A DNA stretch of 47,576 nucleotides from Salinisphaeraceae bacterium (GTDB lineage: Bacteria; Pseudomonadota; Gammaproteobacteria; Nevskiales; Salinisphaeraceae). The position numbers and the translations under genes are program-made. How positions within the stretch are numbered: the first letter of the stretch is position 1; each line of letters starts with the position of its first letter. Shown piece after piece: positions 31,440-41,246 of the stretch. The DNA is taken from positions 1-47,576 of the forward strand of contig NYTH01000024.1 of the NCBI GenBank assembly GCA_002683405.1, written 5' to 3'. The notes under the pieces were generated by a model that searched no databases, was not told where the DNA came from, and saw only the letters and a program-made list of their open reading frames with translations.

Positions 31440-32491
31440 GGGGACGAATCCTTCTGTAACTGACGTTCGAAAACCGTGGCCTGGCCGTATTCTGCCGCCC
31501 GGAACCGTTCCGGCGGCAGGTTGGCCGCTTCCAGAGCCTCGGCCAGGTCCGCCGGCGGCTGGGACTGACCCACGTCGGACAGCTCGAACGTGCCGTAGTG
31601 GATGCCGATGCTGTGCTGCGCCTGCAGAACCTGATGGGCCCGTACGGCCTCGGCCGGGTTGATATGTTGGACGCCAACCAGCCAGCGGGGTTCATAGGCC
31701 CCGATCGGCAGCAGCGCCAGACGCACGGGGCCGAACTGGTCCCGGGTCTGCTGGAAGTGATCACCGTAGCCGGTATCGCCCCCGAAATAGACCGGGCCCT
31801 GATCAGTCTCGACCAGGTAGGCCAGCCACAGGCTCGCGTTGCGGTCCAGGGTGCCGAACCGACCTGACCAGTGCACGCAGCGCTGGCCCCACACCCGACG
31901 TCCGTTGGGCAGTTCGGCCGACTGCCCCCAGTCGAGCTCGTGTATGCGCTGGCTGTTCAGTTTGCGCAGCAGCTGCGCGTCGCCCAGCGGCACGAAGATG
32001 AGCGGATCATCCCGATCGACCAGTCTGCGCAGGGTTGGCAGGTCCATGTGGTCGTAATGGTTGTGGCTGATCAGCACCGCGTCGATTGGCGGCAGATCCT
32101 CGAAGCGGATGCCGGGCGGCCGGTAACGCGCCGGGCCGGCCCAGCCCAGCGGGCTGGCGCGTTTGGACCAGATCGGGTCGGTCAGCAGATTCAGGCCATC
32201 CGCCTGAATCAGGACGCTGGCATGGTTGATGGGCGTGACGACCAGCTCGCCCGCGCCCGCCCGCCGAATCGGCGGCGGGCCGGGCTGGGCTTCCAGCGCC
32301 TGCCAGTCGCCCGGGTCGCGCGCCATCAGGTAGCGCAGGACGTCCGTCAGACCCTTGTCGAAGCTGACCCCGGGATTGTGAAAGCGTCGGCCGTCAAAAT
32401 GGTCGCTTTCCGGCCCGGTCCAGCGGGGGCCGCCGCAGCCGCCGAGCATGAGGCTCAGCGCGGCGAGAAGAGATAGTGGCCCACGCCCCAT
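31436..32491 (-). CDS. MBL-fold hydrolase, NAPE-PLD-like lipoprotein
   Basis: The 351-residue protein has a lipoprotein-like signal (LLAALSLMLGGCG) and a metallo-beta-lactamase domain: NHASVLIQADGLNLLTDPIW, metal ligands in ISHNHYDHMD, GGDTGYGDHF and a late HYGTFELSD. This is the UlaG/NAPE-PLD-like group, some members of which hydrolyse N-acyl phosphatidylethanolamine. The ATG at 32491 lies within the end of the CFA-like gene (37-base overlap); the longer frame is a shadow. Confidence 0.82.
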   Translation of the reverse strand: MGRGPLSLLAALSLMLGGCGGPRWTGPESDHFDGRRFHNPGVSFDKGLTDVLRYLMARDPGDWQALEAQPGPPPIRRAGAGELVVTPINHASVLIQADGLNLLTDPIWSKRASPLGWAGPARYRPPGIRFEDLPPIDAVLISHNHYDHMDLPTLRRLVDRDDPLIFVPLGDAQLLRKLNSQRIHELDWGQSAELPNGRRVWGQRCVHWSGRFGTLDRNASLWLAYLVETDQGPVYFGGDTGYGDHFQQTRDQFGPVRLALLPIGAYEPRWLVGVQHINPAEAVRAHQVLQAQHSIGIHYGTFELSDVGQSQPPADLAEALEAANLPPERFRAAEYGQATVFERQLQKDSSP

Positions 32492-33489
32492 TCGTTGCCC
32501 TTGTCGTAGCCGAACAGTTCTGCCACGGCCATGAAGAACATGCGCCAGCGCTGAATCCACCGGTCCGCGTCGTCTTCGCCGTAAGCCTTGGCAAACAGCT
32601 CCCGAACCGCGCCCTTCTGCTTGTCCATATTGCGCAGCCACGCGTTTGAAGTGGCCTCGTAATGGCGGCCGGAAACCCACCAGTGATCCTCCACGAGCAT
32701 GTCGTCGATGAAGTTCAGCAGCATGTGCTCGCTGGGCATGACGCCGCCGGTGAAGAAATGCCGGGCCATCCAGTCACTCGCGCCTTCGTCGAGGAACGGG
32801 TAGGCCAGTACCTTGTGGCAGAAGATGTGGACAAACAGGAAGCCGTCGTAGTTGAGCCAGCCGCGGATGCGGTGCAGCAACTCCTGGTAGTTGCGCATGT
32901 GCTCGAACATCTCGACCGAGAGAATGCGGTCGAAGCGCTCGCCCGGGTTGAATTCGTTAATGTCGGCCGTGATGACCTTGACGTTCTTGATGTCGCGTTC
33001 GCGGATTCTCGCGTCGATGAAGTTTTTCTGCTGGCTCGAGTTCGACACGGCCGTGATCTGCGCCTTGGGCAGCTGTTCGGCCAGCCACAGCGAGAGCGAT
33101 CCCCAGCCGCAGCCCAGGTCCAGGATTTTCTGGCCGTCCTCCACCCGGGCCCGCTGCGCCGTCAGCGCGAGCATGGCGTCCTCGGCGCCGGGGAGGTCCC
33201 GTACGCCCGAGCCGAACAGGCAGCCGCTGTATTTCAGCCGTGGGCCGAGGACCAGGCGGAAGAACTCGGGCGGCACCTCGTAATGCTGGGCATTGGCGTC
33301 GTCGGTATGCTCGGCGATGGGTCCCTTGGAGGCGCGCTGCAGGAATACGCGCATGGCCTCGCTGCGGCGTTCGCCATCCAGCGCCTCTGGCGTTCGCAGC
33401 CGCGTGCCGATCAGCTGTCGCATGCCGCGGCGCGCCAGCGCATCGGGCACCAGCCCGCGCTCACAGAGTTCTATAGAAAAACTGTCCAT
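32455..33489 (-). CDS. CFA-type SAM-dependent methyltransferase
   Basis: This 344-residue protein belongs to the cyclopropane-fatty-acid synthase family (COG2230): HYEVPPEFFRLVLG, KYSGCLF, SAM loop ILDLGCGWGSLSLWL, ITAVSNSSQQK, RILSVEMFEHMRNY and HIFCHKVLAYPF. It lacks the long N-terminal domain of E. coli Cfa and resembles the shorter group that includes N-methyltransferases of the coclaurine type, so the acceptor is uncertain. It is the first gene of a three-gene minus-strand run. Confidence 0.82.
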   Translation of the reverse strand: MDSFSIELCERGLVPDALARRGMRQLIGTRLRTPEALDGERRSEAMRVFLQRASKGPIAEHTDDANAQHYEVPPEFFRLVLGPRLKYSGCLFGSGVRDLPGAEDAMLALTAQRARVEDGQKILDLGCGWGSLSLWLAEQLPKAQITAVSNSSQQKNFIDARIRERDIKNVKVITADINEFNPGERFDRILSVEMFEHMRNYQELLHRIRGWLNYDGFLFVHIFCHKVLAYPFLDEGASDWMARHFFTGGVMPSEHMLLNFIDDMLVEDHWWVSGRHYEATSNAWLRNMDKQKGAVRELFAKAYGEDDADRWIQRWRMFFMAVAELFGYDKGNEWGVGHYLFSPR

Positions 33490-33811
33490 GATCGTCCGAT
33501 GAAATAAATGAAAGCCGGTCAGGCCGGCCGATCTTCCCGGCCACGTGCATCATCAGGCACCGTTCTCGGGAAATCCAGTAATTGCCGCCGGCGCCCGTAG
33601 CGCTCTTCAGGGGTGGTGCGCCTTGCAAGTAGCTGGTTTTGCTGAACATAATGGCAGGGCTGCCTGCGGGCTGGCGGTGTCGCCCGAGCCGCGATAGCGC
33701 TCACTGCGTCCCGGTTGTCCGCAGACGAATGAGCGGCGGCCGCCCGCGCATGGCCCGTCAGGTCCGCCGCTATTGCGGCCCATCACTTCAAATTGGAGCT
33801 TCGGATTGACT
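33490..33811. other. Divergent intergenic region
   Basis: The 322 bases separate the CFA-like operon (minus) from a small lipoprotein gene (plus) and must hold both promoters. I see a short GCCGG hairpin near 33515-33535 and no convincing gene, repeat or consensus promoter. Confidence 0.4.
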
Positions 33812-34183
33812 ATGACCATTTCCCCGCGCCTGCTCGTACTGTCCGCCTGCGTGGCGCTGGGTGCCTGCAGCACGCAGCCCCGAACCTATCTGTTGCCGGA
33901 GAGCAGCATCGCCGCGGCGAATGCGGATCAGACCATCGACAAGGGTGAAGACCTGATCGAGCAGGGCAATGACCAGATAGAGCGCGGCGAAGACCTGCTG
34001 AAGCAGGCCCGGCGGCTTGAGAAAGAAGGCGAGCAGCTGATCAAGCAGGGCAAGCAGACGCGCGCCGGCGGCAAGGCGCTGATCAAGCAGGGTGAGCAAC
34101 AGGCCCGGTCGGTCGATCTGCTCGAGGAAGCCGAGGACAAGCGCCGTCGAGGCGAGGCCTTGCGGCGCGAGTCCGGCGGCTAG
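33812..34183 (+). CDS. Small coiled-coil lipoprotein
   Basis: This 123-residue lipoprotein has signal LLVLSACVALGAC (lipobox Cys19). The mature part is one long charged helix built of imperfect 11- to 14-residue repeats with the pattern (K/E)-x-G-(E/K)-x-L-I-x-Q-G (KGEDLIEQG, RGEDLLKQA, EGEQLIKQG, GGKALIKQG). The function is unknown; the shape suggests a periplasmic spacer. Its stop TAG lies in the CTAG at the left border of the palindromic element, so the protein end is retained after insertion. The nearest ribosome site (GGAG) is about 15 bases upstream. Confidence 0.65.
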   Translation: MTISPRLLVLSACVALGACSTQPRTYLLPESSIAAANADQTIDKGEDLIEQGNDQIERGEDLLKQARRLEKEGEQLIKQGKQTRAGGKALIKQGEQQARSVDLLEEAEDKRRRGEALRRESGG

Positions 34184-34344
34184 TGTAGTGCGCCACACTG
34201 TCTGGCCCTTATACCGGCCCCATTTTCCGCCATGCGGCGTTGCAGCTCCTCGCCATAGCTACCGCTATGACTCGTCGGCGCGCCTTGCCTGACGAAAAAT
34301 GGAACTCGGTCTAATGTGCCTTCAAATGTGACGCACTACACTAG
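34180..34344. mobile_element. MITE-like palindromic element, copy 1, with CTAG duplications
   Basis: A 157-base element (34184-34340) is bounded by CTAG at 34180-34183 and 34341-34344. Its ends TGTAGTGCGCCACA and the reverse complement TGTAGTGCGTCACA are terminal inverted repeats with one mismatch. The inside is an imperfect palindrome centred on CATAGC/GCTATG, so a single strand could fold into one long hairpin. It has no coding capacity. Both flanking convergent genes end in TAG inside the bordering CTAG. A second copy of identical length is at 39658-39822 with seven differences. Confidence 0.85.
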
Positions 34345-35120
34345 CGTTTCGGGGGCAGCGGGATGAACGCGCTGGTGCGGCGAATGTATTCGTCGTAGCC
34401 CTCGCGGCGGGACTTGCCGCCTTCTCCCTCGATGGTGGGAATACCCGAGACCTTCAGCAGCAGCAGCGCCATGATCACCGGGCTGGCCAGCGTGGCCCAC
34501 CAGAACTCGGCGCCGATAGCCAGGAGGACGTAGGCGACCCAGTGCAGCGACTCGAAGAAGTAGTTGGGATGTCTTGAATACCGCCAGAGGCCCTCGGCGC
34601 AGACCTTGCCGCGGTTGGCGGGGTTCTGCTTGAAGCGGTGCAGCTGGCGATCGGCCAGCGCCTCGCCGCCCACCGAGACCACCCACAGGACGACGGCCGC
34701 CACGATCCAGCCGGTGGCGGGCAGGCCGTCGCGCCACGCGAGCACCAGATAGGGCGCCGACAAAACCCAGGCCACCACGGCCTGGAACCAGAAGAACAGC
34801 AGCATGTAGGTATCGGCGCGCTCGCCCCAGGATTCGCGCGCCGCTGCGTACCGCGAATCTTCCGGCGCGCCGCGCATGCGGATGGCCAGATACAGTGCCA
34901 GGCGGGCTGACCACAGGCCTGCCAGCACGGCCAGCAACATTCGAAGCTCGGCCGGCGCGGGCCCCAGCGCTGCGTAGAGCAGGGCGAGCAGGCCGAGGCT
35001 GGCGGACCATACGGCATCCACCAGACCGGCGTTGCGCGTCTTCAGCTGAATCAGCCACACCAGGGTCAGAAGAACGAAGGTAAGCACCAGGCCCGACAGG
35101 GCTGCATTGATTGCGGACAT
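34341..35120 (-). CDS. DUF1295 (steroid 5-alpha-reductase-like) membrane protein
   Basis: The 259-residue protein has about six membrane helices and the DUF1295 signature near the C-terminus (CAEGLWRYSRHPNYFFES, then EGYDEYIRRTSAFIP). The fold is shared with isoprenylcysteine methyltransferases and steroid reductases; the substrate is unknown. The ATG at 35120 gives the expected start. The stop TAG is formed by the CTAG at the right border of the palindromic element. Confidence 0.85.
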   Translation of the reverse strand: MSAINAALSGLVLTFVLLTLVWLIQLKTRNAGLVDAVWSASLGLLALLYAALGPAPAELRMLLAVLAGLWSARLALYLAIRMRGAPEDSRYAAARESWGERADTYMLLFFWFQAVVAWVLSAPYLVLAWRDGLPATGWIVAAVVLWVVSVGGEALADRQLHRFKQNPANRGKVCAEGLWRYSRHPNYFFESLHWVAYVLLAIGAEFWWATLASPVIMALLLLKVSGIPTIEGEGGKSRREGYDEYIRRTSAFIPLPPKR

Positions 35121-39657: not shown

Positions 39658-39822
39658 CTAGTGTAGTGCGCCACACTGTCTGGCACTTATACCGGCCCCC
39701 TTTTCCGCCATGCGGCGTTGCACCTGCTCGCCATAGCTACGGCTATGACTCGTCGGCGCGCCTTGCCTGACGAAAAATGGAACTCGGTCTAATGCGCCAT
39801 CAAATGTGACGCACTACACTAG
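39658..39822. mobile_element. MITE-like palindromic element, copy 2, with CTAG duplications
   Basis: The element (39662-39818, 157 bases) is flanked by CTAG at 39658-39661 and 39819-39822. It is in the same orientation as copy 1 and differs from it at seven positions (about 95% identity), with no indel. The right CTAG forms the TAG stop of pyk; the left one lies upstream of the VWA gene. Both copies share the left flank GGCGG before CTAG. Confidence 0.85.
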
Positions 39823-41246
39823 AGCTCGCCGACGGTCGCGATTTTCATGGCGTTGGTACCGCCCGGGCCGCGGTAATCCCCCTTGGTGATCAGCACTCGA
39901 TCCCCGTCCTTCAACAGCCCCAGTTCCTTGAGCTTCTGGAGCGCCTCGCGCATGGGCAGTATGCCCAGCAGTTCGGTGGGGATGAAATGGACGGGGTACA
40001 CGCCTCGGCACATGGCCAGATAATTACAGCTGCGCTGATACTGCGTCATCGCGTAGATCGGAACGCGGGTATCCTGGCGTGACATCAGCAGCGCCGTCGT
40101 ACCCGATTCGGTGAGCGAAACGATGGCGTCGGCCCCCATATGGCTGGCGGTATACATGGTGGCCATGGCGATGGCTTCATCGGTCTTGCGGAAGTGGCGA
40201 TCCATGCCGGTGATCATGCGGGGCGCCGTGGTGCCGCGTTCCGCGCCCACGCAGATGCGGCTCATGGCCTGCACGGTCTTGATCGGATGGGCCCCAACGG
40301 CGGTTTCGGCCGACAGCATGACCGCGTCGGTGCCGTCTAGCACGGCGTTGGCCACGTCGAGCACCTCGGCGCGGGTCGGGATCGGCTCACTGATCATGGA
40401 CTCCATCATCTGGGTGGCCGTGATCACCATGCGGTTGCCCTCGCGCGCGGCGGAAATGATGCGCTTCTGCTCACCGGGCAGCTCGGCATCGCCGATCTCC
40501 ACGCCCAGATCGCCGCGGGCCACCATGACCACGTCGGATGCCTCGATGATGTTGTCCAGGTCCTCCACCGCCTCGGCCCGCTCCACCTTGGCCACCAGCC
40601 GGGCATCGCAGCCGCTTTGCCGGGCAAATCGTCGCGCGGCCTGCATGTCGCGGGCACTGCGCGGAAACGACACCGCGAGAAAGTCGAGCTGCTCCTCGGC
40701 CGCAAACCGGATGTCGTCGTAGTCCTTCTCGGTCAGGCCCGCGGCCGACAGCCCACCGCCTCGAAGATTGAGCCCCTGGCGACTGTCGAGTTGGCCACCA
40801 ATCATGACCTCGCAGCGAACCTTGCGCCCCTCCACGGCGACCACCTGCATCGCGATGGCGCCATCGCTGAGCATGAGCACCTGGCCGTTGCGCACGTCAT
40901 CCGGCAGTTCGGGGTAGCTCACGGCCACGCCGTGCTCATCGCCGGCGTCGGGGTCCTGATCAACGTCCAGCGTAAAGCGCTGGCCTTCCTTCAGCGTCAC
41001 CGAGCCCGAGCGGAATTTCTCGATGCGTATCTTCGGGCCCTGCAGGTCGCCCAGGATGCCGAGCGTGATGCCTTCGGCCCGGGCCGATTCCCGGGCCAGG
41101 CGGATGCGCTGGCGGTGCTGCGATGCATCGCCGTGTGAAAAATTCACCCGGACAATGTTTACGCCGGCCTGAAGTATGCGGCGCATGACGTGCTCGCTGT
41201 CCGTCGAGGGGCCGAGCGTGGCGATGATCTTCGTTTTTCTCTGCAC
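39819..41246 (-). CDS. pyk: Pyruvate kinase
   Basis: This 475-residue protein has the full pyruvate kinase core: KIIATLGPSTD, VRVNFSHGD, LGDLQGPKIRI, AKVERAEAVEDL (catalytic Lys), MVARGDLGVEI, TATQMMESMI and DGTDAVMLSAETAVG. It transfers phosphate from PEP to ADP, the last step of glycolysis. The start is a GTG at 41246, placing KTKIIATLGP where the family has it. The TAG stop lies in the border CTAG of the palindromic element. Confidence 0.96.
   Translation of the reverse strand: MQRKTKIIATLGPSTDSEHVMRRILQAGVNIVRVNFSHGDASQHRQRIRLARESARAEGITLGILGDLQGPKIRIEKFRSGSVTLKEGQRFTLDVDQDPDAGDEHGVAVSYPELPDDVRNGQVLMLSDGAIAMQVVAVEGRKVRCEVMIGGQLDSRQGLNLRGGGLSAAGLTEKDYDDIRFAAEEQLDFLAVSFPRSARDMQAARRFARQSGCDARLVAKVERAEAVEDLDNIIEASDVVMVARGDLGVEIGDAELPGEQKRIISAAREGNRMVITATQMMESMISEPIPTRAEVLDVANAVLDGTDAVMLSAETAVGAHPIKTVQAMSRICVGAERGTTAPRMITGMDRHFRKTDEAIAMATMYTASHMGADAIVSLTESGTTALLMSRQDTRVPIYAMTQYQRSCNYLAMCRGVYPVHFIPTELLGILPMREALQKLKELGLLKDGDRVLITKGDYRGPGGTNAMKIATVGEL

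Follow-up and report, generated by a model that had tools for sequence, protein, structure and literature searches.

The palindrome at positions 34180-34344 (plus strand) of the window, which is the whole stretch of 47,576 nucleotides of Salinisphaeraceae DNA analysed here (contig NYTH01000024.1), is very probably a non-autonomous miniature inverted-repeat element (MITE) of the IS630/Tc1-mariner kind that an IS630 transposase inserted into the TA of a CTAG, with selection leaving the surviving copies at stop codons. This assignment is based on its repeats, its copies, its fold, and ends common to full-length IS630 elements. The element comprises 165 bp including both border CTAGs (34180-34183 and 34341-34344), and direct reading confirmed the original prediction that the TAG stop codons of both neighbouring genes lie within these two CTAGs.

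RESULTS

The element and its neighbouring genes

The left terminal inverted repeat CTAGTGTAGTGCGCCACA occupies positions 34180-34197 on the plus strand, its outer CTAG being target and/or element end, and the right one, CTAGTGTAGTGCGTCACA in minus-strand reading, occupies positions 34327-34344. Taken over 19 nt, the inverted arms (34179-34197 and 34327-34345) are 95% complementary. When the 165 nt were folded as a single DNA strand, the energy was -39.1 kcal/mol compared with -20 kcal/mol (SD 2.8) for 200 shuffles (z = -6.9). No ORF of 100 aa was found within the element, which is too short for a transposase, and a search of window positions 33700-34800 against Rfam returned no match at E up to 1.

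The plus-strand gene on the left (33812-34183, 123 aa, C-terminus ..RRESGG*) ends with a TAG within the left CTAG. It was labelled lipoprotein-like by reading of the sequence; no family was found for it in Pfam or NCBIfam, and its homologues, all remote, occur in 5 of 60 relatives. The minus-strand gene on the right (34341-35120, 259 aa, C-terminus ..PLPPKR*) belongs to DUF1295 (PF06966, E = 1.9e-69) and ends with a TAG within the right CTAG. Several DUF1295 homologues outside the family are 1-5 residues longer, and all 14 printed homologues of the same family stop at the same residue (..PWPPKK* and similar). Because of this agreement, the gene has been neither cut nor lengthened, and its end at the right CTAG is the natural one. 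By reading, a methyltransferase-like gene mostly adjoins DUF1295 on the same strand in relatives, and its apparent counterpart in the window (32455-33489, minus strand) lies beyond the lipoprotein-like ORF; thus, the latter came between DUF1295 and the methyltransferase-like gene.

Copies and remnants in the genome

The genome-wide search suggested with the original prediction found 28 whole or partial copies with 95-100% identity, 10 of them whole and 18 partial at contig ends, together with six remnants of 17-22 bp; given these 28 copies, the palindrome is not a chance feature. The cuts at contig ends reflect assembly breaks at the repeat, so that a pair of partial copies may represent the left and right parts of a single element. 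A second full copy lies in the window itself (39658-39822, plus strand; L008), and a pyruvate kinase gene on the minus strand (39819-41246) has its stop in the right CTAG of this copy. The whole element had no match in plasmids.

The six remnants (L069, L071, L072, L073, L077 and L078) carry both CTAG borders. Imperfect palindromes of 22 bp, CTAGTGTAGTGCGYCACACTAG, stand alone at four places in the genome, and a 17-bp unit and a 20-bp unit are located at C8 and C57. Both 22-bp types and the 17-bp unit equal a prefix of the element joined to a suffix, with microhomologies of 5, 3 and 1 bp, and five of the six remnants are equal to single internal deletions of the full element. Judged from these junctions, the short units are best read as internal-deletion remnants with both borders retained, and the 20-bp unit resembles a 22-bp unit that has decayed. 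All counts exclude four further solitary ends lacking a second border (C28, C30, C23 and C33).

A gene stop lies in one or both borders of every remnant, and in both for four of them; the sites lie, for example, between ppk-like and ppx-like genes or after a carB-like gene (names by reading). At loci orthologous to the Ppk/Ppx-like remnant, the anchor motif was present in 6 of 28 and the other 22 were not judgeable; a motif search did not find a convergent Ppk in five relatives among the six anchor-bearing loci. Similar short hairpins, CCTAGCTACGGCTAGGATT, with CTAG twice within 14 bases, occur in the same genome at C28:131154-131164 and C57:10715-10725 and are possibly another small repeat.

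Target site and empty sites

As had been predicted, CTAG is rare in this genome: 142 occurrences were found in 447,576 bases (elements included) versus 1444 expected from base composition, a tenfold depletion. The expectation that every copy is flanked by CTAG held for 32 of the 38 visible ends, with a few others reading TTAG (three), CTGG, CTCG and CTAC (one each). The central TA is retained in 36 of 38 ends, whereas the outer base deviates in three and the inner base in one.

A 4-bp duplication of CTAG and a 2-bp duplication of TA look alike at a CTAG target. Three elements, L010 in this genome as well as L042 and L338, have CTAG at one end and CTAA at the other, fitting TA duplication; an IS630 element (L226) has CTAA at both ends, fitting a 4-bp duplication, and its ends agree at just 12 of 18 positions. 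We lean tentatively towards duplication of TA rather than CTAG.

Empty sites were compared with filled ones for related elements. In two Caballeronia plasmids, an IS630 with the same ends lies between the halves of a PRC-barrel gene (by reading), and its flanks, once connected through a single CTAG, align with uninterrupted genes of Burkholderiales including Paraburkholderia, several of which are annotated as PRC-barrel. At least 80% of the joined-flank query was covered in one place by 13 of 16 matching records; judged by alignment spans, 133 query positions corresponded to 133 record positions in the second row (80.5% identity), and the first row had a length difference of one base. Moreover, when the flanks of a sister MITE from the same order (G039, L048) were joined by one CTAG and aligned with the empty locus of G038, 576 of 604 positions were identical, and the single 1-nt gap fell at the CTAG, where G038 reads CAG instead of CTAG. 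Less similar congeners have CTAA (G025) and CTAC (G033) at this empty site. From the joins at the empty sites of these related elements, it follows that an insertion introduces the element together with a single border unit and no additional sequence. In the empty-site check that had been proposed, related elements join as expected; no empty site was seen for the lipoprotein/DUF1295 locus in 29 relatives, in which the 200 bases downstream of DUF1295, inspected by eye, mostly contain the start of a co-directional gene.

Two further searches concern related elements. The left flank of L037, an element of G038, is itself a dispersed repeat (query 285-428), with dozens of matches of ∼70-83% identity mostly in G038 and G039, and the end of the G361-type element had no match in plasmids.

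Full-length IS630 elements with the same ends

Scanning the genome collection with the end pattern CTAGTGTAGTGMGYCACA gave at least 90 stretches, 80 of which were taken as loci. Among the matches listed, an inverted end with at most four mismatches was located 1141-1172 bp away at 10 of 80 loci. Nine of these 10 full-length elements contain a transposase-like ORF of 359-384 codons, mutually similar by eye, and the longest ORF of the tenth (L192) is not transposase-like. One end is identical over 18 bases to the right end of the window element in nine of the 10 listed, and the other has one to four mismatches. The host groups of these full-length IS630-family elements, again among the matches listed, are Caballeronia, Massilia and Acidobacteria. 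Two of the transposase ORFs matched DDE_3 in Pfam, and one of the two also matched the IS630 family of NCBIfam (273 bits, cut-off 100); the plasmid homologues are annotated as ISBmu8-like IS630. Within the order, the relatives G039, G008 and G045 carry IS630s with CTAGTGT... ends (CTAGTGTGCTGTTCC, CTAGTGTCCTGTTTC and CTAGTGTCCTTTAAC). Two tandem IS630 copies with one common CTAG were observed at G045:C1:1882874-1885108, as if one had entered the border of the other.

Thus, the terminal repeats match those of autonomous IS630 elements, and the 165-bp element is short, multi-copy and devoid of a transposase gene, as expected for a dependent member of this family; a partner in the same genome was searched for and no matching IS630 gene was found. 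The sole DDE_3 ORF of this genome (L063 1411-2370, on C54; HTH_33 + DDE_3) belongs to a different IS630 group, and its DDE_3 domain match ends short, at position 121 of 146. Possibly the partner transposase has been lost or is unassembled, and its absence speaks to present mobility, not to kinship.

Stop codons at the borders

Genes were called with our own codon-score caller at 34 element loci, and 818,413 bases of the same genome, called with a slightly stricter threshold, served as background. Both sides are visible at 16 sites (ten whole copies and six remnants): stops occupy both border CTAGs at seven, one at five and none at four. Among the 18 partial copies, six have a stop on the visible side. 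Counting the copies that abut TAG stops, as had been suggested, we found that a called gene stops exactly at the border TAG on 25 of the 50 sides that are visible and that none of the called genes extends further into the element; an earlier, laxer scan had given two extra sides (L004 right and L021 left).

Compared with elements, the 252 background CTAGs outside them end two genes in six cases and one gene in 75, while 109 are intergenic and 62 lie inside genes. The idea that stop-codon CTAGs are preferred homes was borne out by Fisher tests, both for two stops (7/16 versus 6/252, p = 9e-7) and for at least one (12/16 versus 81/252, p = 9e-4); the latter excess persisted against CTAGs not inside genes (81/190, p = 0.012), and no element lies inside a gene (0/16 versus 62/252, p = 0.013). 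For whole copies alone the values were 3/10 with both stops (p = 0.003) and 6/10 with at least one (p = 0.07). Numbers are small, the seven sites with both stops include four remnants, and remnants may be easier to find where stop codons keep both borders.

To be independent of the caller, open frames reaching the border were also counted, and are given here with the frame of the border TAG first. For frames of at least 150 codons, the counts were 24/3/4 at elements (50 flanks), 116/70/30 at background CTAGs (469 flanks), 10/4/1 in order relatives (25 of 45 flanks being long enough) and 8/9/2 in other phyla (79 flanks). With at least 100 codons they were 27/6/5, 153/100/53, 14/7/1 and 17/12/5, respectively, and with at least 60 codons other phyla gave 28/17/12 versus 209/157/102 for other CTAGs of the own genome. 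The in-frame bias is strong in the own genome and also present in the order; other phyla show one that is no larger than at ordinary CTAGs of the own genome. Due to this lack of in-frame excess in other phyla, CTAG targeting combined with selection is the likelier cause of the enrichment. One IS630 copy in an order relative (L241) interrupts a called frame.

A conserved core hairpin

Relatives contain the central part of the element too, bounded there by different ends. In the window this core hairpin, GGCAAG.CGC ... GCAACGC.G, lies at 34217-34307 on the minus strand, as supported by a covariance model match, the alignment and pair counts, and it is found class-wide. When 21 cores drawn from 14 genomes (three of the cores from the own genome) were aligned, 17 columns, GGCAAG.CGC and GCAACGC.G, proved invariant and enclosed a variable hairpin. 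The structure comprises 27 pairs, 20 from RNAalifold and a 7-pair apical helix (75% of cells paired) added by eye; 90% of cells pair, and 21 pairs are changed on both sides. Its score was reached by none of 500 shuffles, and slid controls collapse. With E up to 0.01 as the limit, the covariance model, built on the 20 pairs, recovered the core from 125 of 369 Gammaproteobacteria genomes and from 100 of 272 genera; frequently all 11 candidates scored in a genome matched. At 29 new loci the core motif was present in 23, and an inverted end pair matching at 12 or more of 14 positions accompanied it in 13 of the 23 and was lacking in 10. The ends of core-bearing elements differ, including CTAGTGTCATGACTGG, CTAGTACTCTTTCAAGG, CTAGTGCTCTGCTTCG, GAGCCTGTCTGTGAAT and others.

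We tentatively propose that the core could be a conserved folding module of its own, present in about one-third of Gammaproteobacteria, that would swap terminal repeats between genera and ride different IS630-type transposases, its folded single strand (DNA or RNA) being functional for element or host. We keep this reading as a possibility that is somewhat doubtful because related sequences can beat shuffles without structure, and the pairing of a palindrome may be kept by hairpin-templated repair instead of selection. If selection acts on the structure of the core, the core would be a common structured element of Gammaproteobacteria to which Rfam offered no counterpart in the stretch searched.

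DISCUSSION

In our model, an IS630 transposase, not found in the assembly, would recognise the CTAGTGTAGTGCG ends and, through cut-and-paste transposition, place the element at the TA within a CTAG. As CTAG is palindromic, one CTAG would then stand on each side, and two facing genes that had shared their TAG stops would both keep a stop; accordingly worded for the window, the lipoprotein/DUF1295 junction before insertion would have read ...GGCGGCTAGCG.... Insertions inside genes would be lost by selection. Since CTAG is rare in coding DNA of this genome and frequent at stops, selection would leave the remaining copies concentrated at stop codons, and most conspicuously at shared ones.

The original prediction had attributed the element to the IS5 group, with a true 4-bp duplication of a YTAR target. 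CTAG on both sides fits YTAR, L226 has CTAA at both ends, and MITEPsy1 of Pseudomonas syringae, a short MITE of 100 bp tied to the IS5-family ISPsy2, duplicates CTAG or YTAA as well, according to the part of the report available (PMC3189936). The ends of MITEPsy1, GGAAGGTCTGAAAAAGCC, are nevertheless unlike those of our element, and the scan for elements with the same ends led to IS630-family elements: those tested are all IS630/DDE_3. An IS5 origin was set aside on this ground, and we regard it as very unlikely. The DDE transposases encoded by same-ended elements also speak against a REPIN-like arrangement, in which a RAYT would move two inverted REP palindromes and the solitary 22-bp copies CTAGTGTAGTGCGYCACACTAG would be single REPs; each of the two 22-bp types is explained by a single internal deletion with 5 or 3 bp of microhomology, and we consider the REPIN-like reading scarcely credible. 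The identity of the 22-bp units as single REPs was rejected because joining the start of the full element to its end reproduces both types.

Two other explanations concern the position between gene ends. Active targeting of gene ends, through convergent transcription, terminators or a host factor, would account for the ratio of shared to single stops: convergent CTAG stops of the background are shared in six cases versus 24 single, whereas the element sites comprise seven shared and one single convergent stop (L007), besides three single co-directional ones (L005, L072 and L077) and one without a called neighbour (L008). It is not evident why selection by itself should prefer shared stops to single convergent ones. 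On the other hand, selection against insertion in genes and operons gives the same effect, other phyla show no excess over background, and the numbers are small, with four of the seven shared sites being remnants, so that we consider active targeting rather unlikely. Slightly less probable to us is the idea that the element is retained between convergent genes for a role as bidirectional transcription terminator or mRNA-end hairpin, which would suit the strong fold (z = -6.9), the covarying core and the frequent location between gene ends, but not the 4 of 16 visible sites without a border stop. Insertion by an IS630 transposase at CTAG followed by selection is our preferred reading.

IS630 reportedly prefers the TA in CTAG, as Tenzen and Ohtsubo are said to have found in 1991. 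Members of the IS630 family (IS630 of Shigella sonnei; ISBmu8-like) resemble our element in the CTAG/TA target preference and in having CTAG at both borders, and the ∼1.17-kb IS630 elements found here have terminal inverted repeats in common with it; unlike them, the 165-bp element has no transposase gene, and the core hairpin is known here from mini-elements. Correia, RUP, ERIC and similar repeats are palindromic, multi-copy and dependent on a transposase in trans, as is the 165-bp element, but differ from it in ends and cores. These three are named as bacterial MITEs in two reports whose accessible portions make no mention of stop-codon reconstitution (PMC10969869 and PMC4853749). ISY100 of Synechocystis is likewise of the IS630/Tc1-mariner group and moves by cut and paste with TA duplication, but is autonomous, and a stop-codon bias is not mentioned in the available part of its description (PMC2170065). 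Searches of the literature on IS630/CTAG, MITEs and overlapping stops, covering partial texts, found no published account of the stop-codon niche or the core. The class of mechanism is known, and within the scope of these searches both the stop-codon niche and the core are new.

The tetramers that let two facing genes share their stops are CTAA, TTAA, CTAG and TTAG, as given in the accessible part of PMC2174442. They are exactly YTAR, the target type liked by CTAG/TA-seeking transposases. A transposon with this taste can enter between overlapping genes harmlessly, splitting the overlap into two stops, which offers a simple explanation, open to testing, for the places at which such elements persist, and provides a marker of former gene overlap. 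One CTAG serving as the stop of two genes, as had been postulated, does occur as empty sites: among 105 convergent pairs in 818,413 bases, 13 overlap, six of them by four bases, and all six overlaps are CTAG. Such empty shared CTAG stops are the expected landing places.
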